IMG/VR virus record: IMGVR_UViG_3300020182_002648
Coordinates: 62,001 to 126,000 of that record
Source of the DNA: a virus
Strand: one strand, 5' to 3'
Length of the DNA: 64,000 bases
The notes beneath the pieces were generated by a model that searched no databases, had not been told where the DNA came from, and was given only the letters and a program-made list of their open reading frames with translations. Shown here one piece after another: positions 10,891 through 64,000 of this stretch (positions are counted from its first letter, which is position 1; each line of letters starts with the position of its first letter). Both the position numbers and the translations under genes were made by a program.

Positions 10891-10916
10891 TGCTATAATA
10901 TATTTGTTGTTATGTG

Positions 10917-11565: not shown

Positions 11566-11566
11566 G

Positions 11567-11830: not shown

Positions 11831-11831
11831 A

Positions 11832-12062: not shown

Positions 12063-12107
12063 ATCCTTATTGTCTTTTACGTTGTTAATGATTGTCGTTA
12101 TAATATA

Positions 12108-12136
12108 ATTATAACGGAATATGTGAGTTAAGGCAA
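12108..12136 (-). promoter_or_regulatory. Sigma70-like promoter
   Basis: TTGCCT, 17 nt, TATAAT upstream of the 76-aa gene and its small operon. Confidence 0.85.
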
Positions 12137-37352: not shown

Positions 37353-38271
37353 CTTTACAACAACTCCACTTACATTTGGTGTAGTTGTTGGCTCTGATCT
37401 TGAATAATGTCTTATTGTCCAGTATATTTCCGATAGGCTTCTCTAAAGTATTTGCACAACACATAAAATAATCTCCATTTCCGTTTATTATAATATACTC
37501 CTTACCGACAGAGCAAGTCCATCCCTCGAATGAAATGCCCTCTCTGTACAGATCATTTGTATCATGAGTTTTAATTGTACCGTCTTGGTATGTTACTTCG
37601 TACTCTTCATGGAACATGGCATGCTCATTAACAAAATCGCTATACATGTCAGTGGTGCTTCGATAGTCAATGTAGCTATGAATAAATTCTATCTTGTTCT
37701 TGTATGGTCGCGTCAACATCTGCTTACTGTTGTCTATGATGTCATTCTTACTCTCTTCATCATGCTCCAACATCACATCTACCTTGCCTAACATCCCTGC
37801 ATTATCAATCATATCAATTTTATCTATAAACTTCTTAAAGTCCTTGGTGTATTTATGATGATATGATACGTTTATATCTAACTTGTTGTCTTTATGATCG
37901 TCAATCAATTCCTGTATATATCCATGGCCTACTGACAGGTTTGTTTGTAATTCAACAATAACAGATTTGTTCATGTTGAATATAAATTTGATCACATCTC
38001 TGCATTTAGGGTGTGTTGTAGGTTCTCCGCCATGGAAGTATATCCGGAAGTTTGTGTGATCTATGCAGTCAATCGCCGAGGTGATTGTATTTTCAATATC
38101 ATCTATATTGTAGTGATGACCGTATTTCCAGTGACAATACTCGCAGTCATAATTACAGTAATCTGTTATACGTAATTGGAATTCATAGTAAGGTTCATCA
38201 AACTTATGTACTCCTTGTTGAGTATTACCTCCTCGGTCGGCTTTTATATTATAATCTTTTGGTATAATCAT
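37324..38271 (-). CDS. Radical SAM protein with C-terminal Cys cluster, 315 aa
   Basis: CNYDCEYC at 39-46 binds the 4Fe-4S cluster with SAM; FHGGEPTTHP is the GGE-type SAM motif. The C-terminus has WTCSVG, YFMCCANT, then CKWSCC, i.e. SPASM/twitch-like auxiliary Cys. Overlaps the TK-N gene start. Substrate unknown. Confidence 0.9.
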   Translation of the reverse strand: MIIPKDYNIKADRGGNTQQGVHKFDEPYYEFQLRITDYCNYDCEYCHWKYGHHYNIDDIENTITSAIDCIDHTNFRIYFHGGEPTTHPKCRDVIKFIFNMNKSVIVELQTNLSVGHGYIQELIDDHKDNKLDINVSYHHKYTKDFKKFIDKIDMIDNAGMLGKVDVMLEHDEESKNDIIDNSKQMLTRPYKNKIEFIHSYIDYRSTTDMYSDFVNEHAMFHEEYEVTYQDGTIKTHDTNDLYREGISFEGWTCSVGKEYIIINGNGDYFMCCANTLEKPIGNILDNKTLFKIRANNYTKCKWSCCKGEFYIPKKK

Positions 38272-38281
38272 AACAATCCTC

Positions 38282-39028
38282 TCACATTAAAAAGCATTTA
38301 TCGTGATTACATATACCGGTATGGTTCTTCCGGTGACAACAGTTATATAGACTTAAATCAGGAGCGTACAGGAAGTACACGCCAGTATACAAGCAAGGCT
38401 TGCCTCTAGGAGAATGACCCTCCCATAGTTTAGATCGATCTGTTCCTAGTCTTTCAACTTCCTCAAAATTAATTACCTTTTGCCAAGCCGGAGATCGTTT
38501 CAATCGATTATAATCCTTCAATGACTCACCAGACACACCATCACCAAAGTCTGCCACCGGTGTCAAGTATGTATTTTTAACATGTTCTTTAACTTTCATA
38601 TAATACTCAATCGCACCTCTGTTGGTGTACATGACGTCGACTATTCGTATGTCAAGATTTGTTGGTATGTTTATATCATCTAGAGCTATTTGCGTGGGAT
38701 GTATTGATACTTGTAATGTTACTGGTTCAGTTATCTTACTCAGAACCCTTTGGCTCTTGTTCGATAAATTTGTTTGTATGACGAATGGTATTTTATGTTT
38801 ATTGAATGTACGTATTATATACTCTATGTGCTGGTGTAGGAACGGCTCTCCACCGAATACAAATATTTCTACTCCTGGGTATGTCTCACCTAACATTATT
38901 ATAAATTCCTCTAACCGTGTCTTATCTAGCACCGGTTTTATTGATGGATCGAGATTTGTACAGTACGTACAACTATAATTGCACAACATAGTGACCTCCC
39001 ATTCCACCATTGTTGGAATTTTATTCAT
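38282..39028 (-). CDS. Radical SAM protein, 248 aa
   Basis: CNYSCTYC at 16-23 and FVFGGEPFLH. Shorter than its cluster mates. C-terminal Cys: GKPCLYTG, YNCCHRKNHTGICNHDKC. Distant from the others in sequence but same overall plan. Confidence 0.88.
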   Translation of the reverse strand: MNKIPTMVEWEVTMLCNYSCTYCTNLDPSIKPVLDKTRLEEFIIMLGETYPGVEIFVFGGEPFLHQHIEYIIRTFNKHKIPFVIQTNLSNKSQRVLSKITEPVTLQVSIHPTQIALDDINIPTNLDIRIVDVMYTNRGAIEYYMKVKEHVKNTYLTPVADFGDGVSGESLKDYNRLKRSPAWQKVINFEEVERLGTDRSKLWEGHSPRGKPCLYTGVYFLYAPDLSLYNCCHRKNHTGICNHDKCFLM

Positions 39029-39036
39029 TACACTTA

Positions 39037-39825
39037 TTATAATATAATTTCGCGACGTTTTCCACTCAACATTATATTAAACTTTCTCACGTCAATGTCA
39101 TATATTCTATCATATGATTCCTTGGGAACATCTGTACCACCGTCTATCCATATGGAATTATCTATCCGAGGTGATAGTTGATACCGGGAGAGTTTTGGGT
39201 ACTTGATTTGCGTCCTATCATCACTTATAAAAAAATCATCAGTATCAATATCAGTAAAGCTAACGCACGGTTTATACTGTTCTGAAGTAAATTCGAATGA
39301 CTCTTTCATGTTGTTACGAATAAGTTCAGGGTTACTGGAAACCAATTCCGGTTCCGATAACTCAATATACTCTTTATATAATGTTTTCTGTAACTCAATA
39401 TCAGTACTATCCAATAGATTATCCAATTGAAAATCAATAACTTGTCTCATCACAGATTTGAGTAGTTTGGTTGCTAGCGGTACCCCACCAATCACTGATA
39501 CTAAGTCTTCCTCACGCATAACACGCCAACCAGTGGTCAACAATTCGATCCCTATATAGTTTGTAGTGTCAAACACGACCTCTGGTAATATATCATGTTT
39601 ATTAGACTTTAAAATGCCTGGCATCCAGTTGATCATATCATACTTTGGCCAGATTACATTCTTATTATATATTTTTAAGAAATTTTCCGTCACTGTATCA
39701 AAATAACATTCAAATAGAATACCGCTTTCCGGTAACGGGTTGCCTTTTGGTAAGGTTTCACGTGGTACTGATTTTATTCTATTGGCTGTAAGCTCTTCAT
39801 TCAGCTGTATTATATCGATATTCAT
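39037..39825 (-). CDS. Unrecognised protein, 262 aa
   Basis: Late-type box 6 nt before ATG, inside the sugar operon. SVIGGVPLATKLLKSVMRQVIDFQLDNLL is helical; the C-terminus is strand-rich. No motif I can name. Position suggests a cluster-specific enzyme or a virion protein that is the glycosylation target. Confidence 0.55.
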   Translation of the reverse strand: MNIDIIQLNEELTANRIKSVPRETLPKGNPLPESGILFECYFDTVTENFLKIYNKNVIWPKYDMINWMPGILKSNKHDILPEVVFDTTNYIGIELLTTGWRVMREEDLVSVIGGVPLATKLLKSVMRQVIDFQLDNLLDSTDIELQKTLYKEYIELSEPELVSSNPELIRNNMKESFEFTSEQYKPCVSFTDIDTDDFFISDDRTQIKYPKLSRYQLSPRIDNSIWIDGGTDVPKESYDRIYDIDVRKFNIMLSGKRREIIL

Positions 39826-39831
39826 ATATAT

Positions 39832-39839
39832 TATTTATT
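39832..39839 (-). promoter_or_regulatory. T4-late-like promoter box
   Basis: AATAAATA, 6 nt, ATG of the 262-aa gene; an internal late promoter within the sugar operon. Confidence 0.6.
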
Positions 39840-40647
39840 CTCTAGCATTCATTATAACAATTTTATCAAGGCTATCAGCATATTTGGCGATCAACGCAGA
39901 GTATTCTCCTTGTGTTGGTATGAATATGTCTCCTGACAGCATGTCTAACAAGTCACTATCAGCATCACTTGAACGGAATTGAGTTTTTATGCCACGACAT
40001 GTGAAGACATCACCTACCATATACATCTCATCAACAATCTCATCTAGATGTACCTCTACTTGCGAATCTCTAGTCCCGAGATCTTCGTGTGTTCCGGAAT
40101 ATATTGTAATACTATCGCAATCAAGCTCGATCAATATATCAGCAATTTCATGAAATTTCTTAATTGGTGTGTACATTCTCCATTCTTTACCTACATGTCT
40201 AGAGATGCTCAGAACATCACCTGTTCTCAGATGTAACTGAGCAATGGTATCAGGGGAGCTCAATCTACTCTCTATTAAATTAAAGAATTTACGCTCTCTC
40301 GTGTCTATATTATCACTTATATCAATTGACTGTATGAACATAGATAACAAACTCCCAGGGAAAGCATCTACCATCCACTCTAGATCACTCATCGAATTAC
40401 AATGAGTGGCATAATTATAAAAATCACCCAACCTGTAGAGGTATCTCTCATCATCAACCGCGTGACAGCCAGTAAACCGGTCTAGATCAGGTGCTCTAGA
40501 GCTCTCATCAGAGCATGTATGTATTGTGTCTGTATATATTATTGAGAATAATTTTGCCCTCATGTTAAAGTTCATTGATCTTCGCTCCGGAGCATACTTT
40601 ATGTTAGAGTTTAAATACATACTATCCTTAAGTTGTGCCCGGGTCAT
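39835..40647 (-). CDS. Possible fucosyltransferase-like glycosyltransferase, 270 aa
   Basis: AQLHLRTGDVL resembles the R-x-G-D loop of GT11/GT23 fucosyltransferases, and SSDADSDLLDMLSGDIFIPTQGEYSALIAKY resembles their C-terminal donor-binding block. Similarity is weak and by eye. Overlaps the upstream radical-SAM gene by 4 nt. Confidence 0.4.
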   Translation of the reverse strand: MTRAQLKDSMYLNSNIKYAPERRSMNFNMRAKLFSIIYTDTIHTCSDESSRAPDLDRFTGCHAVDDERYLYRLGDFYNYATHCNSMSDLEWMVDAFPGSLLSMFIQSIDISDNIDTRERKFFNLIESRLSSPDTIAQLHLRTGDVLSISRHVGKEWRMYTPIKKFHEIADILIELDCDSITIYSGTHEDLGTRDSQVEVHLDEIVDEMYMVGDVFTCRGIKTQFRSSDADSDLLDMLSGDIFIPTQGEYSALIAKYADSLDKIVIMNARE

Positions 40648-41594
40648 TGTTTCTTCTCTTTGTATATTTTTAGCAGACCGTCACAGTTACATGAAGCGTG
40701 TGGACATTTCACTGGACAAACCCGGGTTATATTTTTAAAGAAATATATATCTCTCACTAGATCCACTGGCTCATCAAAACATACCCTATGTGCGATTCCA
40801 TCATATGATATCTCATAATTATTATTCCAGCAATCCCAGTCCTTGAAGTTAGTAAATTTGTTTTCAAATATATTATAATCATTGTACATCTGCTTGTCTC
40901 CGGTTGCCGTCTCGAATGTAAAGTAATCCGGGTAATCCTTAAATCGTTGAAATTCACTATAAAACTCTTGATTGTATTCTTCTAGCTTATGTACATCTCC
41001 TTCTGCATATAAAAAGTGAGGATGTATCACAACTTGATCGCCATATTTTTCGATCTCATCGACAAATTTATGAGTCTTGTTCCATAGACTCTTATTTGGT
41101 GATAGCATTACATTTATCTTCACTCGGAATTTCCTTCGGGTAGCGATCTCAATATTATCTAGTAGTTTCTTGAAGTTCTCGCCATACCGAGATTCATACT
41201 CAGGGTGAAAGCTGAACAGGAAATACAATCGCTCGTGAAACTGATGCTGCTCAAATATACTAGATCGTTGTGAACCGTTTGTAGTTATATACAATCTACC
41301 ATCTTGATGTGTAGTGACTGCATCCAGGCACCGGTTTACAAGCTCATCATAATGTGGATGGATTGTCGGTTCTCCTCCTAATAATCCTAGAAACACTGGT
41401 AAGCTACTTCTAGCAATATTATTTATCACTAACTTTTGCTTGAACCACTTATCTCTTCGTCCCCACTCTTCGCCATAATCTTTCATCGCATAACAATATG
41501 TACACTTGAAGTTACACTGAGTGCTAACATCCCAATGAATATATAACCGCTGCACCTTGTGCTTTGTGTCGTATTGCTTTACATAATTATTCAT
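40644..41594 (-). CDS. Radical SAM protein, SPASM-like, 316 aa
   Basis: HWDVSTQCNFKCTYCYA (Cys27/31/34), LLGGEPTIHP, and C-terminal CWNN, RVCFDEP, VCPVKCPHASCNCDG. Closest relative in the window is its neighbour at 41587-42516 (QCQYRCDYCYF, LLGGEPTLH), indicating duplication. Confidence 0.9.
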   Translation of the reverse strand: MNNYVKQYDTKHKVQRLYIHWDVSTQCNFKCTYCYAMKDYGEEWGRRDKWFKQKLVINNIARSSLPVFLGLLGGEPTIHPHYDELVNRCLDAVTTHQDGRLYITTNGSQRSSIFEQHQFHERLYFLFSFHPEYESRYGENFKKLLDNIEIATRRKFRVKINVMLSPNKSLWNKTHKFVDEIEKYGDQVVIHPHFLYAEGDVHKLEEYNQEFYSEFQRFKDYPDYFTFETATGDKQMYNDYNIFENKFTNFKDWDCWNNNYEISYDGIAHRVCFDEPVDLVRDIYFFKNITRVCPVKCPHASCNCDGLLKIYKEKKQ

Positions 41595-42516
41595 GTTTAT
41601 AAAAGTTATAACAATCAGTACATGGGCAACCAGTAGTCAGAGGACAGGTAACACATTCACTTATGTTTTTATTATTTAATAGTAATGGCTCACCGGTGCA
41701 ACCATTACGAATCGATCCGTCTGGTTGTATATCCCAAAACGTAGCCTTGCACGACCATCCATAGAAGATATCTAATTCCTTCAATCGGACGTTATAATCG
41801 TCTATAATTGTTGTGTTGTTATCCTTGTCAGTAAACTTAACATCCTGAGATCTAAATAGAGATACACCATACCTCTGTTCAGTATCTCTTAAGAATATAT
41901 TAAACTCATCCACGAACTCATCAGTGTACTCTTCATTCCATACATCACTAACAGAGCTCAGCATTTGAAGCCCTATAGGTACTCCATGGTCAAGTAGATC
42001 GATGATAACTGCCTTTATCTCACGCCACATCTTTTCATATATATTAATATTACATACATACGATACATGCTTAAACTTGTTCACCCCCACGCTAGTCTCC
42101 ACAAACTTATCTTTAGATTTTTCATATTGAGGATGATATGAGCCGTTGATCTTAAGTTTGTTAAACTGCTGTTGATCGTACTTTGAGTACCACTCTATAC
42201 TTCTAACCATATTTGTGTGTAGGTTTATCTCATTACATTTATTATTCATGCATAGAGATTTTATGATTATATCTATATCATCATGAAGAGTTGGTTCTCC
42301 ACCTAATAGATCCATATTAAATTTTGGTATTGTCTTGAGAGATACCCGCTTTAAAACATTAACGTAAGCAGTTTTATTTCCTGTGGGTTCAACTTTGTTT
42401 AGACTCTTCTTGAAATAACAATAGTCACACCTGTATTGACATTGTGTATTGATATGCCACTTTAAGAATATCGTATCATGATCCTCTCTTCCGGAAGTGA
42501 TATAATTATTCTTCAT
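41587..42516 (-). CDS. Radical SAM protein, SPASM-like, 309 aa
   Basis: Cys26/30/33 in QCQYRCDYC, DLLGGEPTLHDD, and C-terminal WSCKATF, NGCTGEP, ECVTCPLTTGCPCTDC. ATG at 42516 gives an 11-nt overlap with GT2; an ATG five codons upstream is possible. Tandem paralogue of the next gene. Confidence 0.9.
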   Translation of the reverse strand: MKNNYITSGREDHDTIFLKWHINTQCQYRCDYCYFKKSLNKVEPTGNKTAYVNVLKRVSLKTIPKFNMDLLGGEPTLHDDIDIIIKSLCMNNKCNEINLHTNMVRSIEWYSKYDQQQFNKLKINGSYHPQYEKSKDKFVETSVGVNKFKHVSYVCNINIYEKMWREIKAVIIDLLDHGVPIGLQMLSSVSDVWNEEYTDEFVDEFNIFLRDTEQRYGVSLFRSQDVKFTDKDNNTTIIDDYNVRLKELDIFYGWSCKATFWDIQPDGSIRNGCTGEPLLLNNKNISECVTCPLTTGCPCTDCYNFYKHE

Positions 42517-43165
42517 AGAATCTAGTATCATTATTAAGTTCAGGTACGCTTATGTTGTCCATCCCATCAGTAGTCTGTACCCATTTCTGTTCAGCTATAT
42601 ATTTAAAACTACATCCAATCTCTGCTAACATTCCTAGCAAGTGGTAGTCATTTCTTATATTATTACCACGTGGTACTTGATCTATCAGGTTGTTCTTAAA
42701 TATGATCTGACCTAATTGAAAATACTCATCATCAAAGACGTTAAAGAACTCACTCAAGTTAGTGAGAGACTGATACTTGCGATTTTTCCGCATCATCTTA
42801 TATGCACAAACCGGGCCGTAATATTCAATTTCCGGTTCAGAAATATACTCGATATACAGTACATCAGAATCATATACTATGTTGTCAAAAAAATTACTTC
42901 TAATATAATCATCATCTTCCAGAATATAGACATATTCCCCTCCGGATTGATCATATAACAGCTGATATATATCGGATATATCGATCGATGTTTGATAGTT
43001 ATATCGAATCTGTACCTGAGCGCTATGTATTTCGGTTATATCTTTACTGTCATTGTTAACTATGATTTCGATCGGATAATCTGGTAGATTATTGAGTATA
43101 CTATTTATTGATCGTTTAAATAGTTCCGGGCGATTGTGTGTTGGTATTAATATCGATAACTTCAC
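42506..43165 (-). CDS. GT2-family glycosyltransferase, 219 aa
   Basis: SILIPTHNRPELFKRSINSILNN and the EDDD metal site (YVYILEDDDY) are GT2 landmarks. No membrane span, so it works in the cytoplasm. 4-nt overlap with the upstream gene. Confidence 0.88.
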   Translation of the reverse strand: MKLSILIPTHNRPELFKRSINSILNNLPDYPIEIIVNNDSKDITEIHSAQVQIRYNYQTSIDISDIYQLLYDQSGGEYVYILEDDDYIRSNFFDNIVYDSDVLYIEYISEPEIEYYGPVCAYKMMRKNRKYQSLTNLSEFFNVFDDEYFQLGQIIFKNNLIDQVPRGNNIRNDYHLLGMLAEIGCSFKYIAEQKWVQTTDGMDNISVPELNNDTRFYEE

Positions 43166-44097
43166 GTTGCTTCTAGTATATTGATGATATCATCGCTCTC
43201 GGACAATCGAATACTATCAAAATCACTTTCGATATCCAGCATGCGATTCTTCAATCCAGTATCATGGTCAAGGTAATCATTGTCAATATTATGATAGATT
43301 ACATCTCGGTCATAATGTTTACATTCTGCTGGGAGTCGAGGGCTACCATCAAACATCCCTCGTGTAGGTGTGTATATATAAGTGTTGAATCGACTGAACA
43401 TATCTTGTAGAGGAGGTACAGTAAACTCAAACCGGTCATCTGGAATACTTCTGCATTGTTCTGTTATCACAACATATTTCTCAAACTCATAACTATCAGC
43501 CACCTGTAACAAGTCAGTATCTGAGATTTGTCTGCAGTTGATAGTAGCGTATATCAACCCAGTTGATTCTGTACATGTGTCAACTTGCTTCAATATGTCG
43601 AAGTTTATTTTCTTCTTGTAATTTATACTCAACTTAGTATCCTCTGGATTGCACAGATCATACACTCGATCATCTTGCAAAATAGTCACATCATACGGTA
43701 CATCATACAGTGTATCAAACCGCGAGCATTTGAAGGAATACACGCGATCAAAAATCAACTTCGTGCCTTGTCGCTTCAATCTGTGCAAATCACCATCTAC
43801 AAATAGAATATTATTGCCTTTGATAAACCTCGGTAGATTTGTGAAGTAGGTAGAGTTCTTAATTGAATCTAACTGATCATCGCTCAAGCTATACTTACGT
43901 GTTATCACTAGTTTAAATTCATCCCAACATTTAAACGTGTCACCGAACAGTATACATACATTAAGCTTGGTTGATAGTATCACGAAGTAATCGATTATTT
44001 CGAAAACATGACCTGATATTCGATGTGGTTGATCTGGGTACCAGGTCATCGATAAACATATATCATACTTCCGATCAAGTATGGTCATGTCACTCAT
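43162..44097 (-). CDS. Putative glycan-cluster protein, 311 aa, possibly GT-like
   Basis: Start uncertain among four nearby Met codons (44109-44088). C-terminal TYIYTPTRGMFDGSPRLPAECKHYDRDVIY recalls the donor-side end of some GT-B transferases (GxxxSPRLPAECxxY). No DxD or GT-A pattern. Named only by context. Confidence 0.45.
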   Translation of the reverse strand: MSDMTILDRKYDICLSMTWYPDQPHRISGHVFEIIDYFVILSTKLNVCILFGDTFKCWDEFKLVITRKYSLSDDQLDSIKNSTYFTNLPRFIKGNNILFVDGDLHRLKRQGTKLIFDRVYSFKCSRFDTLYDVPYDVTILQDDRVYDLCNPEDTKLSINYKKKINFDILKQVDTCTESTGLIYATINCRQISDTDLLQVADSYEFEKYVVITEQCRSIPDDRFEFTVPPLQDMFSRFNTYIYTPTRGMFDGSPRLPAECKHYDRDVIYHNIDNDYLDHDTGLKNRMLDIESDFDSIRLSESDDIINILEAT

Positions 44098-45121
44098 CAT
44101 ACATCCCATGACGATAATGATTCACGTCTGTGATCTTCTCACCTGGCTCAGGATTCGGCTTGCATGCGGTCACTTGCTTCTCGATACCATCACATATGTT
44201 ATAATACTTACAACTCATACACTCAACTGGCTTGACGTAATCCTCTTCACGTGGTTTACGCGCTGCATCATAAGCCATGTCTATCTTCTCTTCATGACTG
44301 TACTGTTTTGATACGTCAACACTGTAATCATAAATCTCTTTGTTCCAATCATATCTATCATAAATATGTTGATATTGATTGCATACATACTTCTCATATC
44401 CTTTCATGTAACAATAGGGTGTGTATCTAACGTTTATATATCGTACGTGATGCTTTATGTTATCGATACAAATTTTAATATTGTCCGTTACCTCCGTATA
44501 ATCTATAGCATCCGCAAACTTGTTATTTACCCAATAATTTAGAGTCAAGAAATTAACTTCTAATGGGTTTAACCTTTTGATAACCTCGTGATAACTCTTG
44601 AGACCTTCACAATTTCTTTGATACACTGTACAGTTTACTCTCACTACCATGTCATGAGCATGAGCTAGTTCGATTGCCTGGTTAATCTTCTTCCAGGCAC
44701 CCTTCCGGCGGACAATCTCATCATGGCTTTCCTCATCATATCCATGAACACTGAACATTATCTCTTTGAGTCCGCGCTCCTTGCTCTTCAATAAGAATTT
44801 CTCACGAGCAAATGCCCATCCATTACTCAATGTACTTATGTTACTGAATCTTGTATTACAGTAATCTAGTATATCAAACCATTGCTTATGCACGCTGCTC
44901 TCTCCGCCAGATAAATCAACCTCGTCAATACCGTATTTGTGGAGTATATCTATACGTCTCTTTATTTCATCAAAATCTGTCACTTGATCGAGCATGCCTT
45001 GGTAATAACAAAACTCACAGTCATAATTACAGAACGTACCAGTGTCCAGCTTGGCACGGTTACATCTAGGAGTGGTATAATCTTTTCGTAGTAGTACGGT
45101 GCTGAACTTGTTGCAATTCAC
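44090..45121 (-). CDS. Radical SAM protein with C-terminal Fe-S motif, 343 aa
   Basis: GTG start 5 nt after TATAAT. CNYDCEFC at 31-38, VDLSGGESSVH, and C-terminal CMSCKYYNICDGIEKQ, a C-x2-C-x5-C site typical of SPASM-type auxiliary clusters. First gene of the operon. Sequence recalls enzymes that act on small molecules or peptides; the substrate is unknown. Confidence 0.9.
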   Translation of the reverse strand: MNCNKFSTVLLRKDYTTPRCNRAKLDTGTFCNYDCEFCYYQGMLDQVTDFDEIKRRIDILHKYGIDEVDLSGGESSVHKQWFDILDYCNTRFSNISTLSNGWAFAREKFLLKSKERGLKEIMFSVHGYDEESHDEIVRRKGAWKKINQAIELAHAHDMVVRVNCTVYQRNCEGLKSYHEVIKRLNPLEVNFLTLNYWVNNKFADAIDYTEVTDNIKICIDNIKHHVRYINVRYTPYCYMKGYEKYVCNQYQHIYDRYDWNKEIYDYSVDVSKQYSHEEKIDMAYDAARKPREEDYVKPVECMSCKYYNICDGIEKQVTACKPNPEPGEKITDVNHYRHGMYDE

Positions 45122-51830: not shown

Positions 51831-52325
51831 ATGCACGAGCAATTATTAGAACTAGCTGACTCTCCACCGGACTTAGAGCAGTACACACCTTACGTTCAAT
51901 ATGGACCACCAGTTTTAATTTATGGTGTCCCTATCAAGAATAGCTATGATCATGAGAGGTTGACTCTCAATGAGAGTTTAGAACCCAAAAGATTGAGAGT
52001 TGGTACTGATTGCTTTTATGGCTTTATATTGCAACCGACACGATTGATGAGCAAGGTGTGTAGTGTTGCAACTAGTGTGCCGATGGATCACCCAGACTGT
52101 GTCAATATGTATAAGAAGAGACTCGCCATGTGTGAATTGACATGTGACAATTGTTGGGCTCACTTGAGTGAAAATATTTTTCCTATTGATGCGAATAATT
52201 TACCTCTCTTAGCTATAAATAGTCGGTACATGCGGATGGCGAACCCCATGCCACTACAATCAACTCGCACCAAACTTCCCTGGTTCACACAACACGCACA
52301 AATGAAAATTTTTATCCTCAAATAA
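51831..52325 (+). CDS. Hypothetical protein, 164 aa
   Basis: ATG 6 nt after the -10. Contains DCFYGFILQP, CSVATSVPMDHPDCVNMY, CELTCDNCWAHL: five to seven Cys in a central stretch (CxxxCxxC) could bind metal. Not a radical-SAM layout (no GGE). Ends one base before nrdA's ATG. Unknown role. Confidence 0.55.
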   Translation: MHEQLLELADSPPDLEQYTPYVQYGPPVLIYGVPIKNSYDHERLTLNESLEPKRLRVGTDCFYGFILQPTRLMSKVCSVATSVPMDHPDCVNMYKKRLAMCELTCDNCWAHLSENIFPIDANNLPLLAINSRYMRMANPMPLQSTRTKLPWFTQHAQMKIFILK

Positions 52326-53965
52326 TGAACGTAAAGAAACGTAACAACAAAACAGAAGAATTTAACGAACAGAAAATTCGCGCTTGTATCGAGAGATGCT
52401 GCGTCGATCCTGAAGGAAATGTATACCCCGGGGTCACAGCTGATACTATAGTGTTTAATGCTAAGATCAAACTGTATGATGGTATAACAACTCAAGAGAT
52501 CGATGACAGTATAGTCAAGAGCGCTCGTAGCATGATTGAGCAAGAGCCTAACTACAAGTTTGTTGCTGCCAAGTTGTTGTTAAACACCATATACAAAGAA
52601 GTGTTCAACACTGGTGTTGATGGTGATGCGTTTGAATTACAATATCGTACCAGCTTCATTGTGAATCTCAAGAAACTGGTGAAAGCAGGTATCTTGCACA
52701 AAGACATGGCCAAGTTTGATCTTAACAAGTTGTCGAGTCATTTGAAAATTGAGAGAGACAACAATTTCGAATATTTAGGTATTCAGACTATCTATGATAG
52801 ATATCTGCATCATATTGATGAACAGAAAATGGAGGCTCCTCAGGCATTCTGGATGAGAGTCGCCATGGGACTGGCATTAGGTGAAGCTAAGGAAGATAGA
52901 GTCGAGTGGGCTTTGAAGTTCTATGATCAATTGAGCAGTTTCAATTGGATGAGCAGCACTCCTACATTGTTTAATAGTGGCGGGACGTTCAGTCAGCTGA
53001 GCAGTTGTTTCCTCAACACATTCGAAGACAGTATTGTGGGTATATTTGATGGCTTGTTACAAGAGGCTCTCAAGAACAAATATTCAGGTGGGTTGGGTAT
53101 GGACATGACCAACTTCAGAGCCACAAACAGTTATATCAAGGGTACAAATGGAGAGACACAAGGCGCTGTATACTTCTGGAAGCTGTATGGTGACATGCTC
53201 ACTGCTGTCAATCAAGGTGGCAAGAGAAGAGGAGCCGGATGTGCTTACTTAGAGACTTGGCATGCTGATATTGAAGACTTTATTCAATTGCGGAAGAACA
53301 CAGGAGATGAACGCAAGCGCGCTCATGATATGAACACAGCTAACTGGATTCCTGATCTGTTTCTCAAATGCGTCAATGAGGACAAGCCATGGTATTTGTT
53401 CACACCCAATGAGACTCCTGATCTTCATGATTTATATGGTAAGGATTTTGAGAAGAGGTACTATGAGTATGTCAAGAAAGGTAAAGCAGGAGAGCTCAGA
53501 GTGTTTAGAGAGGTTCAAGCTAAGGATCTGTGGAAGAAAATGCTTAGATCTCTATTCGAGACTGGTCATCCATGGATCACTTTCAAAGACTCATGCAATC
53601 TGAGAAGCCCTCAACAACATGCTGGTGTGGTTCACAGCAGTAACCTTTGTGTAGTGGGTGATACAGAGATAGATTGTATCATAGATGGTCGTAACAGTGT
53701 TGTACGTATGGATGAACTTGTTGATCTACATAACAGTGGTAAACGATGTGAGACAATGTCATATAACGTCGATACACAAGAGTATGAATATAAGCTAATA
53801 ACTGATGCTGCTATGACGAACGACAACGCAGAGATCCTAGAGATTGAGGATTGTACCTCCGGTAAGGTCATCAGATGTACTGCTGATCACAAGATATACA
53901 CAACCAACCGTGGGTATGTACCTGCCGGAGAGCTAACAGAGGAGGATATTTTAGTAATATCGTAA
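52325..53965 (+). CDS. nrdA: Ribonucleotide reductase large subunit N-terminal part fused to split-intein N-half
   Basis: 546 aa. Residues 1-90 are an ATP-cone (VKKRNNKTEEFNEQKIRACIERCC). Cys228 in LSSCFLNT corresponds to E. coli C225. N-extein ends at residue 441 in HSSNL; Cys442 begins the intein (CVVGDTEID). IntN is 105 aa with the block-B TxxH (CTADHK) and stops at TAA (LVIS). It reduces ribonucleotides to deoxynucleotides with NrdB once spliced to its partner. The split falls exactly at the thiyl-radical motif NLC-x-E. Confidence 0.93.
   Translation: MNVKKRNNKTEEFNEQKIRACIERCCVDPEGNVYPGVTADTIVFNAKIKLYDGITTQEIDDSIVKSARSMIEQEPNYKFVAAKLLLNTIYKEVFNTGVDGDAFELQYRTSFIVNLKKLVKAGILHKDMAKFDLNKLSSHLKIERDNNFEYLGIQTIYDRYLHHIDEQKMEAPQAFWMRVAMGLALGEAKEDRVEWALKFYDQLSSFNWMSSTPTLFNSGGTFSQLSSCFLNTFEDSIVGIFDGLLQEALKNKYSGGLGMDMTNFRATNSYIKGTNGETQGAVYFWKLYGDMLTAVNQGGKRRGAGCAYLETWHADIEDFIQLRKNTGDERKRAHDMNTANWIPDLFLKCVNEDKPWYLFTPNETPDLHDLYGKDFEKRYYEYVKKGKAGELRVFREVQAKDLWKKMLRSLFETGHPWITFKDSCNLRSPQQHAGVVHSSNLCVVGDTEIDCIIDGRNSVVRMDELVDLHNSGKRCETMSYNVDTQEYEYKLITDAAMTNDNAEILEIEDCTSGKVIRCTADHKIYTTNRGYVPAGELTEEDILVIS
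53648..53962 (+). other. Split intein N-terminal half (IntN), 105 aa
   Basis: Starts at nucleophile Cys1 and contains motif A (CVVGDTEID) and B (TxxH). It ends in a stop codon rather than continuing to an endonuclease domain, so splicing in trans with IntC is required. Confidence 0.9.
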
Positions 53966-53973
53966 AAGTATTC

Positions 53974-54017
53974 AGGGGTATCTCATAAGTAGTTATATGA
54001 CGCTTAGAGATACCCCT
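53974..54017 (+). promoter_or_regulatory. RNA hairpin enclosing the homing-endonuclease start codon
   Basis: AGGGGTATCTC (53974-53984) pairs perfectly with GAGATACCCCT (54007-54017). The 22-nt loop carries the ATG (53997-53999) and a late-promoter box. No U-tract, so it is not a typical terminator. Confidence 0.85.
53984..53991 (+). promoter_or_regulatory. T4-late-like promoter box in the hairpin loop
   Basis: CATAAGTA, 5 nt, ATG of the GIY-YIG gene. Transcripts starting here would lack the 5' arm of the hairpin. Confidence 0.65.
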
Positions 54018-54785
54018 AAACACTATGTATATATGCATACAATAACTACAACAAACAAGTCCTATATAGGATACACATCAAAGAGTGTATCTGAGAGGTT
54101 GAAGGGTCATTATAAGAATGCTTTCATTAATAACCTACAAGCCCATTGGCATAAAGCTTTAAGAAAGCACGGGATGGGAGCAGTTAAGACTAAGTTACTA
54201 GCAGAAGCTGATTCTAGAGAAGAGGGATTGAAACTTGAAATGGAATTTATCGAGAAATTTGATACTTATAAGAATGGTTATAATCAAACACTTGGAGGTA
54301 CCGGAGGTGTTACTATAGACAGGGAACGCGATCCAGAGAAGTGGCAAGCATGGTATGACAAGAAGTTAAAACATGTACAAGGAGCAAACAATCCTAGTTA
54401 TTCTGGATACACTGATGACCAGCTGGTCGACATCGCGGTTGGTTTATATTTAGACAATAACAGATTGTTCACGTACGGTATATGGAAGAGACATTGCCAG
54501 TCGTCAAAGACTCCACAGAGTTTCTCTAAAATGAGATTCAATGGAGAAGGGTTCAGAGGTTTCAAGAGAATGATCAAACTAGAATTGACAAATAGAGGTA
54601 TTGATTATACTGATGATAGTTTTACATACAAGAGAACTGCTGAGCATAATGCCAATTTGAGAAACAACAATATAGGAAAAAAGTGGTTCACAAACGGGAC
54701 GAAGAGGTTAATGACATATCAAGATGACCCGCGGGTATCCGGTTGGAAGAACGGAAGGACTTTAAACAAGACAAACACAATTTAA
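53997..54785 (+). CDS. GIY-YIG homing endonuclease (free-standing, between split-intein halves)
   Basis: 262 aa. YVY (10-12) and YIG (23-25), Arg34 in SVSERLKGH, a Glu in EMEFIEKF, and GYNQTLGGTGG fit GIY-YIG nucleases. The C-terminus is a putative DNA-binding region. It lies between IntN and IntC, so it should cut intein-free nrdA alleles and spread the locus. The upstream hairpin with an embedded late box parallels the regulation known for T4 I-TevI. Confidence 0.9.
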   Translation: MTLRDTPKHYVYMHTITTTNKSYIGYTSKSVSERLKGHYKNAFINNLQAHWHKALRKHGMGAVKTKLLAEADSREEGLKLEMEFIEKFDTYKNGYNQTLGGTGGVTIDRERDPEKWQAWYDKKLKHVQGANNPSYSGYTDDQLVDIAVGLYLDNNRLFTYGIWKRHCQSSKTPQSFSKMRFNGEGFRGFKRMIKLELTNRGIDYTDDSFTYKRTAEHNANLRNNNIGKKWFTNGTKRLMTYQDDPRVSGWKNGRTLNKTNTI

Positions 54786-54787
54786 TT

Positions 54788-54886
54788 ATGATAAAAATTA
54801 CAAAACTTAAACAAAAGCAACCAGTGTATGATATCACTGTAAAAGATAATCACAATTTCTTCGGAAATAATATACTAGTACACAAC
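54788..54886 (+). other. Split intein C-terminal half (IntC), 33 aa
   Basis: MIKITKLKQKQPVYDITV then HNFFGNNILVHN, blocks F and G ending His-Asn, followed by Cys+1. It starts with its own ATG 2 nt after the endonuclease stop. Length and motif fit known split inteins. Confidence 0.92.
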
Positions 54887-56014
54887 TGCACCGAGATCAC
54901 ATTAAACACAAAAGCGACTAGCTACACAAAAACTGGCAGAAGTGTCAAGGAGTATGGAGAGACCGCTGTTTGTAATTTAGGTAGTATCAATCTGAAGAAT
55001 CATTTGATTGAAGTAGATGGAAAAGTAACGTTAGACTATGACAAGCTGAAGAACACAGTGACTGTTGGTATGAGGATGTTAGATAACGTTATTGATATCA
55101 ACTTCTATCCGACTGAAGAGACTCGGAGGAGCAATACTAAGCACAGACCAGTAGGCATGGGTAGCATGGGCTGGCATGATATGTTCTTGTCAATGGGCAT
55201 TGAATTCGATAGCGATGAGGCTGTCAAGTTGTCAAGCGATGTGTATGAATACATTTCATACAATGCTATATCAGCTAGTAACGATCTAGCCAAAGCCAGA
55301 GGCAAGTATGAATCATTCGAAGGATCAGCCTGGTCACAAGGTATATTACCGATGGATAGTTATCGTGACTTGATGAAGTTACGTACTGTGCGAGCTAGCA
55401 GTCGATCCAAACTCGATTGGGACTCTCTCAGAGCGTCTGTAGTTAAGCATGGCATGCGGAACAGCAACACGATGGCCATAGCACCAACAGCCACGATTAG
55501 CTCTATTGTAGGATCAAGTCCGAGTATCGAGCCATATTACAGTGTGTTGTATGTGTACAGTACATTGAGTGGTGAGTTTACCATGGTCAATGATCACTTC
55601 GTCAAGGACATGAAGAAGTTAGGATTATGGTCTCAGAGGCTAATCGATGATGTGAAACGTACAGATGGTGATATCTCCAAGTTGACTGATTGGAAAATTC
55701 CAGCAGAGATTGTGTCCAAATACCGAACAGCGTTTCAGCAGGATCAGATGAAGATGGTTGAATCTGCTGCTGCAAGGCAAAAGTGGATTGACCAGGGGGT
55801 GAGTTTAAATCTGTACAATGACAAGTCGAGTCTCAAGTTTTTGAATGATTTGTACATGCATGCATGGGAGAACGGATTGAAGACCACATACTATCTACGC
55901 AATCGTGCTGCCAGTACAATTGAGAAGAGCACAGTTGGGTCAACTCCAGAACCAGAAAATATCACAGCATGTAGTTTGAACAGTGCCCCTGGTGAATGTG
56001 AAGCTTGTCAGTAG
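54788..56014 (+). CDS. nrdA: IntC fused to ribonucleotide reductase C-terminal part
   Basis: 408 aa. After IntC the extein begins CTEITLN, the thiyl-radical Cys region (E. coli C439 and E441). AVCNLGS holds the second redox Cys (C462), and the CEACQ end is the C-terminal CxxC pair. After trans-splicing the mature NrdA would be 441 + 375 = 816 aa. Followed by small genes and nrdB. Confidence 0.93.
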   Translation: MIKITKLKQKQPVYDITVKDNHNFFGNNILVHNCTEITLNTKATSYTKTGRSVKEYGETAVCNLGSINLKNHLIEVDGKVTLDYDKLKNTVTVGMRMLDNVIDINFYPTEETRRSNTKHRPVGMGSMGWHDMFLSMGIEFDSDEAVKLSSDVYEYISYNAISASNDLAKARGKYESFEGSAWSQGILPMDSYRDLMKLRTVRASSRSKLDWDSLRASVVKHGMRNSNTMAIAPTATISSIVGSSPSIEPYYSVLYVYSTLSGEFTMVNDHFVKDMKKLGLWSQRLIDDVKRTDGDISKLTDWKIPAEIVSKYRTAFQQDQMKMVESAAARQKWIDQGVSLNLYNDKSSLKFLNDLYMHAWENGLKTTYYLRNRAASTIEKSTVGSTPEPENITACSLNSAPGECEACQ

Positions 56015-59590: not shown

Positions 59591-60250
59591 TTAGAAGTCC
59601 ATGGACAGTCCAACTGATACAATAGTTTCCCCATCGACGTCTTCTGCATCAATGTAATCGACTCCCAAGTTACCCTTGAGATCACCAACGACCACACGTG
59701 AAGCACCCAGACCAGCAATGAAGTAGTCTCGGTCGAGTGTTTTGGTCACTTCAGTCCGTCCAACACCAGCTCCAACCGTCAATGCGGCAAGGTCAGTGTC
59801 GAACGTGTGACTGATTCCAAGCTCAGTAGTATACAACTCATCGTCGAGATTGTAAAACACTGTAACTGTTGGTGACAATACTACATCAGCTGACAAACCA
59901 ATGAACAATTCACCAACTGACGCTCCGTCTACTTGCTCACGGTGAGTGTACCCACCAGTTGCAGCTAACAGACCGTCAAGGAAGGTTGATGACACACCTC
60001 CGACGAATTCATACGTATCACTCGTGCCTGCTAGAGGTGAGCTCATGAATCCGGAGAAGTACGCTCCGATATTATCAGAGACATCCCCTTGGACACCTAG
60101 TTGAGTTTGGATTGCTTCAGAAGACACGAGAGCACCACGATAAATGTAGTCGGACTTGTACCCCGTGCTAATATTACCAGACAGCTCTCCTGCCGTTACG
60201 TTATTGATTAAGCTGCAAAGCAGCGTTAGAATAGTTAATTTAACTTTCAT
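59591..60250 (-). CDS. TorF-like outer-membrane beta-barrel protein, 219 aa
   Basis: Signal peptide (residues 1-20, VTA cleavage). GNISTGYKSDYIYRGALVSS is the TorF/putative-porin N-terminus, and repeated amphipathic strands end in a C-terminal Phe (VSVGLSMDF), the beta-barrel assembly signal. Own leaderless-type promoter and terminator make it a self-contained unit. A phage-encoded porin is expected to alter the host outer membrane; the role is unproven. Confidence 0.8.
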   Translation of the reverse strand: MKVKLTILTLLCSLINNVTAGELSGNISTGYKSDYIYRGALVSSEAIQTQLGVQGDVSDNIGAYFSGFMSSPLAGTSDTYEFVGGVSSTFLDGLLAATGGYTHREQVDGASVGELFIGLSADVVLSPTVTVFYNLDDELYTTELGISHTFDTDLAALTVGAGVGRTEVTKTLDRDYFIAGLGASRVVVGDLKGNLGVDYIDAEDVDGETIVSVGLSMDF

Positions 60251-60292: not shown

Positions 60293-60409
60293 CTACTCTC
60301 CAAATTTGTACCCGAAACAATCTTCATCTATCACACTTTCATAAAACCCCAATAAACTATTAAGTTCTGAGCATAATCCACGTATTGTGAGTTTGTATGT
60401 ATAATTCAT
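60293..60409 (-). CDS. Hypothetical protein, 38 aa
   Basis: ATG overlaps the methyltransferase's TGA (AATGA). MNYTYKLTIRGLCSELNSLLGFYES with end CFGYKFGE. No family recognised. Confidence 0.45.
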   Translation of the reverse strand: MNYTYKLTIRGLCSELNSLLGFYESVIDEDCFGYKFGE

Positions 60410-61065
60410 TTCTCTAAAATTATTCTCATTAATACAGGGTTATCATCTTTGTAGATAGATAAATCGTCTTGCTCGTTGAAATAAAGCAATTTAAATCCAA
60501 GAGATAGAACTGTATTTAAGAACTTTTGTGAATCTACGAATCTACGAGTATGTCCATCATTAAAATATGTTGTGTCACATATATGCTCACCCACTCCGAA
60601 TTTTGTATCTTTGGTTGTGCGAACTTCAATACAAAACAAACCCTCTCCCCTTAAACATTCGAATACTTTGGTTAATAGTCTATCTTGCTCTTCTGATGTA
60701 ATTGAATGAATAGTGAACCGAGAATAAAACACATCAATTGGTAACAGGTCTGGATGATATTCATTTGTATGTTTATCATCTGAGTGATGCGAGGGTTTGA
60801 TAAAATCATCCACAAGAAACTGTAGTCTATGGTGAGCTTTGCCTTCTTTAACTGAAGAATCTATAGACTGATCAACAGCCAGAACATCATGACCTAATTT
60901 AGCGAAATAAAACGAGTCTCTTGCATTTCCACACCCTAAGTCCACGATTGATCGCTGATGTTTAAAAAAGTTTTCTTCGCAAAATTTAGCAAAAGTGCTA
61001 CATTCAGATATATCCTCTCTAAACGAGTGATCTCTATAAAATTTATTCCAGTATTGTTTGTCCAT
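60406..61065 (-). CDS. SAM-dependent methyltransferase, class I, 219 aa
   Basis: IVDLGCGNARDSFYFAKLGHDVLAVDQS (about 40-67) is the SAM-binding motif I region, with acidic post-I Asp. Resembles sugar- or small-molecule O/N-methyltransferases of glycan clusters. ATG overlaps the LicD-like stop by one base. Part of an AT-rich second glycan group. Confidence 0.85.
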   Translation of the reverse strand: MDKQYWNKFYRDHSFREDISECSTFAKFCEENFFKHQRSIVDLGCGNARDSFYFAKLGHDVLAVDQSIDSSVKEGKAHHRLQFLVDDFIKPSHHSDDKHTNEYHPDLLPIDVFYSRFTIHSITSEEQDRLLTKVFECLRGEGLFCIEVRTTKDTKFGVGEHICDTTYFNDGHTRRFVDSQKFLNTVLSLGFKLLYFNEQDDLSIYKDDNPVLMRIILEK

Positions 61066-61652
61066 TATCGTTTTCCGTGTCTAGTATGAGCATGCTTGTC
61101 TTTTATTGGTGTGCGCCAATCACTACCATAAAGTTTCTGAAAATAAACCTCTGGATTTACTGGGCATGCAAACTCTCTATTGTTGAAGCTCACTGTGTTA
61201 TTTTTTGAGAAATCCGCAGGTGTCAAAGTGCCAAAAGACGGATGATTGATTAAGTTTTCTGATTCCGTATTTTCTTTTTCATAGAAATAAATATCTATAT
61301 AATCCCCGCCACGAGTGAATGAGGTAATCAAAGGGAGCAACCTAGTTAGTATCAGCTTATTTTCTTTCATCTTTTCTACGATTTTGATAAGCTCCTCCTC
61401 ATTATCAATCCATACAGCTATATCTGTATCCGTATCATGCTCGATAAGGTTTCCATCTCTGTATATCCCCAGTAGAGTACCAAATACAATACAATACTTG
61501 ACTTCAAGATGTTCAAAGATATCAACCGTGGTTAACAGGTTGGATGTTGACTGTTGTATATTGATTGGAGTTCCGGGCTGGTTAGGATGATTTGAGAACC
61601 GATTTTGCCCGGTGATTCGAGGGTACTTACGTTTGATTTTATTTATTTTCAT
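61065..61652 (-). CDS. LicD-like phosphotransferase, 195 aa
   Basis: YCIVFGTLLGIYRDGNLIEHDTDTDIAVW and LYGSDWRTPIKDKH match LicD/fukutin-related nucleotidyltransferase-fold proteins, which attach phosphocholine or similar phospho-groups to glycans. Metal-binding DTDTD triad present. Likely decorates a surface or virion glycan. Confidence 0.8.
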   Translation of the reverse strand: MKINKIKRKYPRITGQNRFSNHPNQPGTPINIQQSTSNLLTTVDIFEHLEVKYCIVFGTLLGIYRDGNLIEHDTDTDIAVWIDNEEELIKIVEKMKENKLILTRLLPLITSFTRGGDYIDIYFYEKENTESENLINHPSFGTLTPADFSKNNTVSFNNREFACPVNPEVYFQKLYGSDWRTPIKDKHAHTRHGKR

Positions 61653-61662
61653 TTTATAAATT

Positions 61663-61824
61663 TTACATTTTTGTTATAATCCCATGCATTTTGTTTTTGC
61701 AGTGAGTCTTGTTTGTTGTTTTGGGAGTATCTAATTGTAATCCAGTTTTTTTAGCCAGCACATATGCAGCTGCATATTGTATCAGTCGGTTTCCAAGGCG
61801 ACCTCGATATTTCATATCAATCAT
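61663..61824 (-). pseudogene. Truncated GT11 (alpha-1,2-fucosyltransferase-like) N-terminus, 53 codons
   Basis: MKYRGRLGNRLIQYAAAYVLAKKTG matches the GT11 start (GRLGNQLFQYAxAYALAKK), but the reading frame stops after 53 codons, with no catalytic core. A relict or a co-opted small protein. ATGA overlap with the GT47-like gene. Confidence 0.65.
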
Positions 61825-62789
61825 AACTTGCTATCTAATCCTTTTAAACTTAAAATTTCAGTAGATATAAATTTATTATCAATTTTATTTATATCAAAAT
61901 CATTTTTATATATTTCCACGAGCTTTGCTAACAGAAACTCCGAGAATCCATATGCAGCACAATTGTGTTTAAAGAACATATCATGAAATTTGCGAATATT
62001 GTTCTTCATATACAATACACGTTCTTTGTCTTCTAATAACAATGTAACTTGTTGATGTATATGTTCCATGCTATGTTCTCGTAAATCAAATCTTAACACG
62101 TAATCGTCGACATTCGTAAATATATTTTCCCAGCCATAGTCATTCATAGAATTGATCATAATCGGAATACACCCACATCTTATTACATCAAAAAATGTAT
62201 GTGTCCAAATTCTATCACCACGTAACATATACACGACATCTGATTTGGATAAATTATTTAAATAAGTTTCATATGTTCCTGTTTTGAATCCATCTCTGTA
62301 GATCTTCTCTTTAAATAAAGAAACATCGAATCTTTTGTCATCTACTTTGTTGTAAAAAGAAAGAACGTTACCTCGTGTTTCATGAGTGTTGTTACCAGAC
62401 CAAAAAACTTTATTGTGAAAAGTTTCATTTTTAATTGTTTTATTGTCGCCAAACTTAGGGCCGAGAGGAGTCGGTATGACATAAGGAATATCGCATAAAT
62501 CGTTTGTTGAAAAACAAAAGTTACTAAAGTTTGGACGAGGTGAAATTGCATTATCAACACAAAATCCTTCACGGCACTTCAACAAACTTAAGTTTACATA
62601 TTTGCGAGGATTGCGAAGAATAGAAACCTCATTGGGTTTTACTTTGTTTGAATCATATGCATGCCAGTGCTTTTCCGTAAAATACAAATCGGCATCTTTA
62701 GATGAGCCATCAACGAAATTGATTTTTTTATGAAAAGTGTCGCAAAACCGGTTTTGCTTTAATCCAAAATCTGTTGCTATTGTTATCAT
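61821..62789 (-). CDS. GT47/exostosin-like glycosyltransferase, 322 aa
   Basis: RGDRIWTHTFFDVIRCGCIPIMINSMNDYGW is the exostosin-type C-terminal block (R-x-x-E/D-x-x-x-x-GCIPVI), and VIPTPLGPKFGD precedes it. No DxD needed in GT47. No transmembrane segment. Likely glycan synthesis. Confidence 0.75.
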   Translation of the reverse strand: MITIATDFGLKQNRFCDTFHKKINFVDGSSKDADLYFTEKHWHAYDSNKVKPNEVSILRNPRKYVNLSLLKCREGFCVDNAISPRPNFSNFCFSTNDLCDIPYVIPTPLGPKFGDNKTIKNETFHNKVFWSGNNTHETRGNVLSFYNKVDDKRFDVSLFKEKIYRDGFKTGTYETYLNNLSKSDVVYMLRGDRIWTHTFFDVIRCGCIPIMINSMNDYGWENIFTNVDDYVLRFDLREHSMEHIHQQVTLLLEDKERVLYMKNNIRKFHDMFFKHNCAAYGFSEFLLAKLVEIYKNDFDINKIDNKFISTEILSLKGLDSKL

Positions 62790-62790
62790 A

Positions 62791-63510
62791 TTATAGTAAT
62801 TTATTTAAGAAATCATCATATTGTTGTATAAAAGGAAATTCACTCAATAATTTGCTCTGTTCCTCATTGCTGAGTTTTTTCTTCCACTCATAAATGTCTG
62901 TGGTTCTTTTGTGAGATTTTAACTTACCCGCTTCGATTAAATCGCTTTTATCTTCAATCGGTGCGAAAGAGTATTTCCATTTCTCGTAAGTTTTATCGTA
63001 TACAGAAGCCATGTCAAGAGTTTGTAACAACTCTTTTAAAAATTCACTAAAATTACCTATCATGAACTCATACGGTAATATAACTTTGTTGGTTGCCGGC
63101 AAGTTCCAAAATTTTTCAATTTTCTTTGAATTAATGGGGGTAACTCTATTGATATAATTCGCAAGTCCTTCTTTTTGAATTTTTTGCCGTTTCGACTCAA
63201 ATTGTTCTTGTGTAAAACCAGCAGGGCACTTATGAGTGTATCCGAACGAATAAAACATAGATATGGTAATACCAATAGGATTGCGAGGTATGAAAATAAA
63301 ATTGTCATTAGCGAGATTAACACCAACAAGTTTTGCCGGATTTGCTGGATTGATCAATCGCTCAAATCGCAACTTCATTAAGCCTGAATCATTATTAACC
63401 ACAATATCTTCTCCCACTTTGATTCGCGGAAGATCGAAAACACTCTTCAAAATTTTTGAAACTATTGTTGATCCGCACTTGTGCGGTGCATGTATTATAT
63501 ATTTTTTCAT
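62791..63510 (-). CDS. Sulfotransferase, 239 aa
   Basis: Start at ATG 63510 (MKKYIIHAPHKCGSTIVSK); a longer TTG-started frame overlaps the upstream gene. HKCGST is the 5'-phosphosulfate loop and FIPRNPIGITISMFY the 3'-phosphate-binding segment (RNPxxxxxSxY). Transfers sulfate from PAPS to a glycan or protein acceptor. Confidence 0.8.
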   Translation of the reverse strand: MKKYIIHAPHKCGSTIVSKILKSVFDLPRIKVGEDIVVNNDSGLMKLRFERLINPANPAKLVGVNLANDNFIFIPRNPIGITISMFYSFGYTHKCPAGFTQEQFESKRQKIQKEGLANYINRVTPINSKKIEKFWNLPATNKVILPYEFMIGNFSEFLKELLQTLDMASVYDKTYEKWKYSFAPIEDKSDLIEAGKLKSHKRTTDIYEWKKKLSNEEQSKLLSEFPFIQQYDDFLNKLL

Positions 63511-63556
63511 TTTTGTTTTTTTTTCGTTCCCTAAGAAAGTATACTTTTTTATTTTG

Positions 63557-64000
63557 CTAAAATTTATATCCAAAGTAATTTATGTCCCACTCAAATAATT
63601 TTGAAACCTTTTCTTTGGTCTCGTCGTTGTAGTATTTTCTATAATCATATTCTACCCGGTTAGTATTATGCTTTTGGTGTGAGAGATTATAATCAACAAT
63701 TCCCAGTTTATTAAAAACGACCTTCGCATCGTGTTCTATGTTTTCTTGTCTTATGAAGTGATCTATACATAGTTCGTTGTTATAATGAAACATTGATTTA
63801 TATGTGTTGTTACGGGTAAAATGATCTCTCTCTAGATTATGACAAACCCAATCATTAAATGTAGATGTTACTCCACGATGAACCGATATATGATGGTAAA
63901 AAGAGACAACCCTATCAAAAGGATTTCTTATAACTGTAAATATATACCATTCCTTTCTTTTAAAACAATCTTCAGAATACCTGTCATTAATAAATTTAAC
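63557..64000 (-). CDS. Sulfotransferase, C-terminal 148 codons (5' end outside window)
   Basis: Reads in one frame to the right edge. FTVIRNPFDRVVSFYHHISV is the 3'-PB segment of the Sulfotransfer_2 family, and the C-terminal NTNRVEYDYRKYYNDETKEKVSKLF and FGYKF are typical of it. A second sulfotransferase, not closely similar to the 239-aa neighbour. Confidence 0.85.
   Translation of the reverse strand, partial: VKFINDRYSEDCFKRKEWYIFTVIRNPFDRVVSFYHHISVHRGVTSTFNDWVCHNLERDHFTRNNTYKSMFHYNNELCIDHFIRQENIEHDAKVVFNKLGIVDYNLSHQKHNTNRVEYDYRKYYNDETKEKVSKLFEWDINYFGYKF

Follow-up and report, generated by a model that had tools for sequence, protein, structure and literature searches.

Why would a T4-like marine virus carry a string of genes for building and sulfating sugars, and on which surface would the product be displayed? 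The question is raised by a minus-strand gene block at positions 60406-64000 of a 64,000-nucleotide stretch of viral DNA (the window), which corresponds to positions 62001-126000 of the 146,809-base IMG/VR record IMGVR_UViG_3300020182_002648, here called G000. An initial annotation had described this block as a glycan-modification module with methyltransferase, LicD-like, GT47-like, and two sulfotransferase genes, unusual in phages and probably acquired, and had proposed that its products could hide glycans of the host or the virion. We find that the block and its continuation beyond the window, together called module C, form one of three glycan islands of this virus, and the predicted functions of its genes suggest that G000 coats either its own particles or the host surface with sulfated sugars.

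All five genes named in the initial annotation were recovered as minus-strand open reading frames (ORFs) with family support, which for the sulfotransferase ST1 came through a homologue (Table 1). The methyltransferase is 80% identical to one on the viral contig G058, and in both cases the gene overlaps a LicD gene. The LicD protein scored above its family cut-off, the GTLLGxxR...HDxDxD motif was present in 3 of 3 aligned homologues, and FGTLLGIYRDGNLIEHDTDTDIAV is kept in the homologues from G058 and G014. A homologue of the GT47 protein (42% identity) is encoded in the G058 cassette and itself exceeds the PF03016 cut-off. Translation of ST1 probably begins at the ATG at 63510 rather than at the TTG at 63573. 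The second sulfotransferase gene, ST2, continues for 63 residues past the window to G000:126189 (complete gene, L002:5558-6190, where L002 is the locus carrying the continuation of the string). Inspection of this flank revealed that the block runs on for approximately 3 kb, to G000:129042 (window coordinate ~67042), and includes two further glycosyltransferase-like genes, GTA and GTB, and a third sulfotransferase gene, ST3. GTA and GTB are labeled as putative glycosyltransferases on modest grounds, and no solved-structure relatives of GTB were found. Every gene of the block is intact, and together the glycosyltransferase, LicD, methyltransferase, and three sulfotransferase genes form a single co-directional string, overlapping for the most part, headed by a conserved kinase/adenylyltransferase gene. 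The strongest terminator-like hairpin on the minus strand (11 pairs) lies 3' of the entire string, past a gene at 59591-60250, and the string itself contains only weak ones. The gene at 59591-60250 has its own sigma-70-like promoter (TTGCCA-17-TATAAT) and homologues at seven other loci and in the sister virus G055; its small product, with a signal-peptide-like N-terminus and a barrel-like sequence, is possibly a phage-encoded outer-membrane protein.

Five sulfotransferases are predicted in G000, ST1 to ST3 in module C and ST4 and ST5 in a second glycan island, module A. ST2, ST4, and ST5 are Sulfotransfer_2 members by profile score, with PF03567 values of 40.7 (complete ST2), 55.6, and 29.7 to 31.8 bits, respectively, against a cut-off of 22, and are predicted to depend on 3'-phosphoadenosine 5'-phosphosulfate (PAPS); ST2 also matched the sulfotransferase family PHROG 3347 with 69.5 bits. 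The PAPS motifs of the family (5' PKxxGTS-like and 3' RxPxxRxxS) are present, and three residues of the 3' motif (R, P, and S) do not vary among 14 to 23 sequences. In ST2 the loops read PPKCAGTS and RNPFDRVVS. The PAPS loops of the block as a whole are kept across viruses at 20 to 40% identity. Neither ST1 nor ST3 matched Pfam directly. Taken alone, ST1 is weak (leave-out profile, E=7e-4), and a structure predicted for it from a mixed alignment was of poor quality and matched nothing. A full-length ST1 homologue on another viral contig (L087:11133-11891, 39.5% identity) scored 23.5 against the Sulfotransfer_1 (PF00685) cut-off of 22, and the two proteins share both PAPS loops, HKCGST and RNP-x-x-I-x-ISMFYSF.

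Module A occupies approximately 25.1 to 44.8 kb of G000, with tail-fibre-like genes on one side and a neck gene on the other, and holds ST4, ST5, GT10, GT90, GT92, and other glycosyltransferase genes. Its GDP-mannose dehydratase scored 517 bits against a cut-off of 415, and its GDP-fucose synthase-like and UDP-galactopyranose mutase-like genes scored below their cut-offs. We considered a sulfated fucan as the product, given the GDP-mannose dehydratase and the GT10 fucosyltransferase, but among 28 records no other had GT10 above the cut-off, and fucose is therefore not the general acceptor. The third island, at 30.6 to 45.1 kb of the window, contains GT8, a DXD-type glycosyltransferase, PIG-L, five radical S-adenosylmethionine (SAM) genes, and a split transketolase. 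Its 37324-45121 part, in which the radical-SAM genes lie amid unknown genes and a glycosyltransferase and adjoin the split transketolase and the PIG-L deacetylase, is an unusual sugar-chemistry block.

The major head protein, head protease, neck, and hub proteins of G000 match T4-type families (gp23, gp21, neck, and hub), and its capsid protein is approximately 34% identical to cyanophage gp23. The gp23 of the sister virus G055 (222 kb) is 74% identical to that of G000. In the 60 kb of G055 examined, eight ORFs either satisfy the sulfotransferase profile or come close to overlapping an ORF that does, and a further two resemble PAPS-loop proteins. These genes are flanked by conserved core genes (45 to 82% identical to those of G000 in the regions compared), but no G055 sulfotransferase exceeds 27 to 32% identity to any from G000, and the island genes are not orthologous. 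The islands have therefore been replaced rather than inherited. This arrangement, in which variable glycan genes are enclosed by conserved core genes, is that of a T4-like hypervariable glycan island, and by this comparison such islands are exchanged wholesale between related viruses. The AT-rich composition that had been reported for the block is real: its mean gene GC is 34.5%, versus 40.5% in 71 core genes, and its codon usage is deviant, with a distance greater than that of 99.95% of sets of core genes drawn at random (2000 sets; fraction 0.0005). The other two glycan islands also deviate, but less. Deviant composition and codon use, the wholesale difference from the sister virus, and the G058 cassette all support acquisition.

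That cassette, on a contig of 80 kb in which neither gp23 nor the kinase gene was found, carries homologues of the methyltransferase, LicD (55% identity), GT47, and ST1 genes on a single minus strand, together with further sulfotransferase genes, a Fringe-like glycosyltransferase gene, and a weakly fucosyltransferase-like gene. The methyltransferase and LicD genes also adjoin in a third contig (L021). The genes for GTB and ST3 lie side by side in G000, L022, and L072, close together in L124, and fused as a 634-amino-acid ORF in L061, which argues that ST3 sulfates the product of GTB. Separately, an 819-amino-acid G058 protein (L173:12705-15164) has an N-terminal GTB-homologous domain followed by two stretches like sulfotransferase PAPS loops; Pfam did not confirm it, and it is a possible glycosyltransferase-sulfotransferase-sulfotransferase fusion. 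Profile searches detected sulfotransferases in 21 to 22 of 38 records (G000 and 37 other carriers of the kinase gene), with the most matches, 11, in a 116-kb record. A peptide-pattern search of viral contigs found no close relatives of ST1 or ST2, and a profile search from the sulfotransferases alone was therefore used, which returned at least 531 confirmed stretches in IMG/VR viral contigs and 43 bacterial or archaeal loci, versus 2 to 4 matches (tblastn) among 50,697 phage isolate records. The family is therefore rarely met in isolates although it is widespread among uncultured viruses, and the description of these genes as unusual in phages holds for the former but not for the latter.

When would the islands be expressed? 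The sequence NATAA[AG]TA lies 11 to 20 nucleotides before the ATG in 26 of 146 G000 genes, versus 0 to 2 genes in each other 10-nucleotide bin, a positioning that identifies it as a late promoter of T4 type. Genes with this motif ahead of them include gp21, gp22, fibre genes, the operon-head kinase gene, and six module A genes, one of which is ST4. In G055, a perfect TATAAATA occupies the same place before the kinase gene. Counts of TATAAATA across whole loci mostly showed no excess over chance (L005 was high), and only the position-specific test is informative. The genes of the block are thus probably transcribed late, together with the virion genes. In most kinase-gene viruses (L008-L028), what precedes the kinase gene is not the late motif but a GTGTAnnATA-like element, a sign that the promoter there may be of another class, perhaps early. 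A gp23 homologue was detectable only in G055 among 14 kinase-gene contigs tested; most lack a match, so the kinase-gene records are not demonstrably of one lineage, and we dropped that idea.

We prefer, narrowly over host-surface modification and with a probability slightly under one half, the reading that soluble enzymes acting late decorate virion proteins with sulfated glycan. Two features incline us towards the virion, the late type of the promoters and the lack of membrane proteins: across modules A and C (31 ORFs), no hydrophobic 19-residue membrane segment was found, nor was there a membrane flippase or membrane glycosyltransferase signature of the kind expected of a Gtr-type seroconversion cassette. 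The island genes would be transcribed late with the virion genes. Using a cytosolic acceptor, the soluble GTA, GTB, and GT47 enzymes would assemble a short glycan, to which the sulfotransferases would attach sulfate from host PAPS at defined positions. ST3 would modify the sugar that its partner, GTB, has put in place, and a phospho-(N-methyl)-type group would come from LicD and the methyltransferase. The most likely acceptor would be a virion surface protein, such as a tail fibre or a capsid decoration protein, and the exchangeable islands would therefore diversify the charge and recognition properties of the particle surface. Several points weigh against this proposal. The glycan, its acceptor, and the virion protein are predictions, and the promoter timing is likewise read from the DNA. 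Soluble glycosyltransferases can also work on lipid-linked host intermediates. The adjoining signal-peptide-bearing, barrel-like protein (59591-60250) suggests that the virus contacts the host envelope. Finally, the late motif precedes only 1 of 30 sulfotransferase genes in the kinase-gene viruses that lack a matching capsid gene, and the timing claim is therefore restricted to G000 and G055.

The closest competitor, a serious one to which we nonetheless give less than even odds, is that the enzymes remodel the host surface, altering O-chain or capsule intermediates so that binding is prevented for other phages or, on debris, for the progeny of the virus itself. This is the published interpretation of similar islands in T4-like pelagimyophages (PMC7029224), and a role of this kind has also been proposed for glycosyltransferase islands of cyanophages, large members of which carry lipopolysaccharide (LPS) clusters (PMC3037559). 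The neighboring gene for a secreted barrel-like protein and the three sugar-nucleotide genes of module A described above would also suit surface polysaccharides. However, the promoters are late rather than early, and the blocks lack a membrane glycosyltransferase, flippase, ligase, or polymerase. Within virion decoration, a bolder version, which we hold only tentatively and consider rather doubtful, is that these phages produce virions of sulfated glycoprotein. In this version, late-expressed and exchangeable gene sets, encoding soluble glycosyltransferases along with multiple sulfotransferases, would give the tail fibres or capsids a combinatorial pattern of sulfate groups, the phage equivalent of a heparan-sulfate-like code at the surface.

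An integrated sulfation pathway, in which the operon-head kinase makes PAPS for the sulfotransferases through an adenosine 5'-phosphosulfate (APS) kinase and an ATP-sulfurylase-like domain, is improbable. APS kinases are both the best solved relatives (2.5e-10) and the best Foldseek matches of the N-terminal half of this protein, its domain order resembles that of human PAPS synthetase, the gene heads the operon with a one-base overlap, and the isolate Stenotrophomonas phage DLP6 carries both the kinase gene and a sulfotransferase gene. Against this, gluconate kinase is almost equally similar in fold, the C-terminal half is nicotinamide mononucleotide (NMN)-adenylyltransferase-like, and the protein passes Pfam APS_kinase (48.3 versus 21.1 bits) but fails the NCBIfam apsK equivalog (44.5 versus 138.7 bits). 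The distance from the kinase gene to the nearest sulfotransferase gene was no smaller than random (19 records, mean rank 0.47), and no sulfotransferase was found in either of two small siphophages with the kinase gene, one of which has it beside a NADAR gene. We therefore rejected the kinase as a PAPS supplier; it is more likely a conserved neighbor outside the pathway, with an NAD- or nucleotide-related role. Least probable of all is that the island is passenger DNA, recently acquired and mostly non-functional filler in a headful-packaging genome: 'stuffer DNA' has been raised as a possibility for cyanophage LPS clusters (PMC3037559), and the AT-rich, deviant codon use and the complete island turnover between sister viruses would fit, but the block genes are intact, their PAPS loops are conserved between divergent viruses, their promoters are precisely positioned, and their gene pairs and fusions are conserved.

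Table 1. Predicted features of module C, its flank, and module A (window coordinates unless a locus or record is given).
Feature	Position	Strand	Basis or remark
SAM-dependent methyltransferase	60406-61065	-	Final gene of string; Methyltransf_25, 27.7 bits (cut-off 27); other Pfam methyltransferase families
LicD-family phosphotransferase (phosphocholine-type nucleotidyltransferase fold)	61065-61652	-	PF04991, 34.2 bits (cut-off 22.6)
GT47 exostosin-like glycosyltransferase	61821-62789	-	PF03016, 34.5 bits (cut-off 33.4)
ST1, Sulfotransfer_1-type sulfotransferase	62791-63510 (ATG) or up to 63573 (TTG)	-	Homologue and PAPS loops
ST2, Sulfotransfer_2 sulfotransferase	63557-64000	-	C-terminal 147 residues; window end cuts gene
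GTA, DUF6492/GT2-like glycosyltransferase	L002:6187-7005	-	DUF6492 and weak GT2 matches
Small ORF, 104 amino acids	L002, between GTA and ST3		
ST3, third sulfotransferase	L002:7332-8255	-	Profile of ST2-like proteins, E=8.6e-7
GTB, glycosyltransferase-like	L002:8252-9043	-	DxD-like motif (ETDS); paired with ST3
Conserved kinase/adenylyltransferase gene	L002:9043-9870	-	Operon head; one-base overlap with GTB
ST4	G000:33584-34222		Module A
ST5	G000:37795-38790		Module A
Proteins with xxDxxLIWESY / LLWEAY peptide	L002:15291-15887, 10524-11129, 11528-12127; L004:3433-4158; L176 (G055:59790, 60516)		N-terminal short peptide

Three other observations were made. Several proteins, some with late promoters, share a similar short N-terminal peptide (Table 1), which is perhaps a tag like the capsid-targeting sequence of T4 internal proteins. 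A full-length DUF1501 protein (L002:13146-14414, 368 bits), distantly sulfatase-like, is conserved in several kinase-gene viral contigs and in G055 (53 to 68% identical). At 52325-56014, the ribonucleotide reductase large subunit gene is apparently interrupted both by an intein-like end (HNFFGNNILVHN) and by a GIY-YIG-like ORF.

How do these islands compare with known systems? Like the host-recognition cluster of pelagimyophages, they belong to a T4-like marine virus with variable glycosyltransferase and sugar-nucleotide islands beside tail fibres and smaller clusters elsewhere, and a host-surface role was proposed for the pelagimyophage islands (PMC7029224). Unlike those fibre-side islands, module C lies outside the fibre region, and sulfotransferases, which that paper does not mention, number five in G000, where ST4 follows a late promoter of its own, and eight or more in G055. 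The LPS clusters of cyanophages P-SSM2, S-SSM7, and S-SM2 are likewise large glycan-gene sets co-transferred and shared between T4-like phages; sulfotransferase enrichment and late-promoter coupling, both seen in G000, are not described in the part of that account used here (PMC3037559). Sulfotransferase families do occur in other marine phages, noted singly and with function given as unclear in OM43-phage MVGs and Synechococcus phage S-SRM01 (PMC10580990), but those are single Sulfotransfer_3 genes, whereas G000 has several paralogous Sulfotransfer_2/1 genes within glycosyltransferase cassettes. Heparan sulfate 2-O and 6-O sulfotransferases share the family fold and PAPS loops, and among proteins of solved structure they match the phage family best in sequence, but the phage enzymes are predicted to be soluble, are 200 to 330 amino acids long, and lack a Golgi anchor. 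T4-like glycan islands are thus known, and their multi-sulfotransferase, late-promoter form appears to be new. Because the sulfotransferases of G000 are numerous, cassette-borne, and partly under apparent virion-phase control, sulfation of phage particles or infected-cell surfaces becomes a testable question. If virions are indeed sulfated, a new level of variation would be added to phage surfaces, with a bearing on adsorption, the fate of particles in the sea, and sulfated organic matter.

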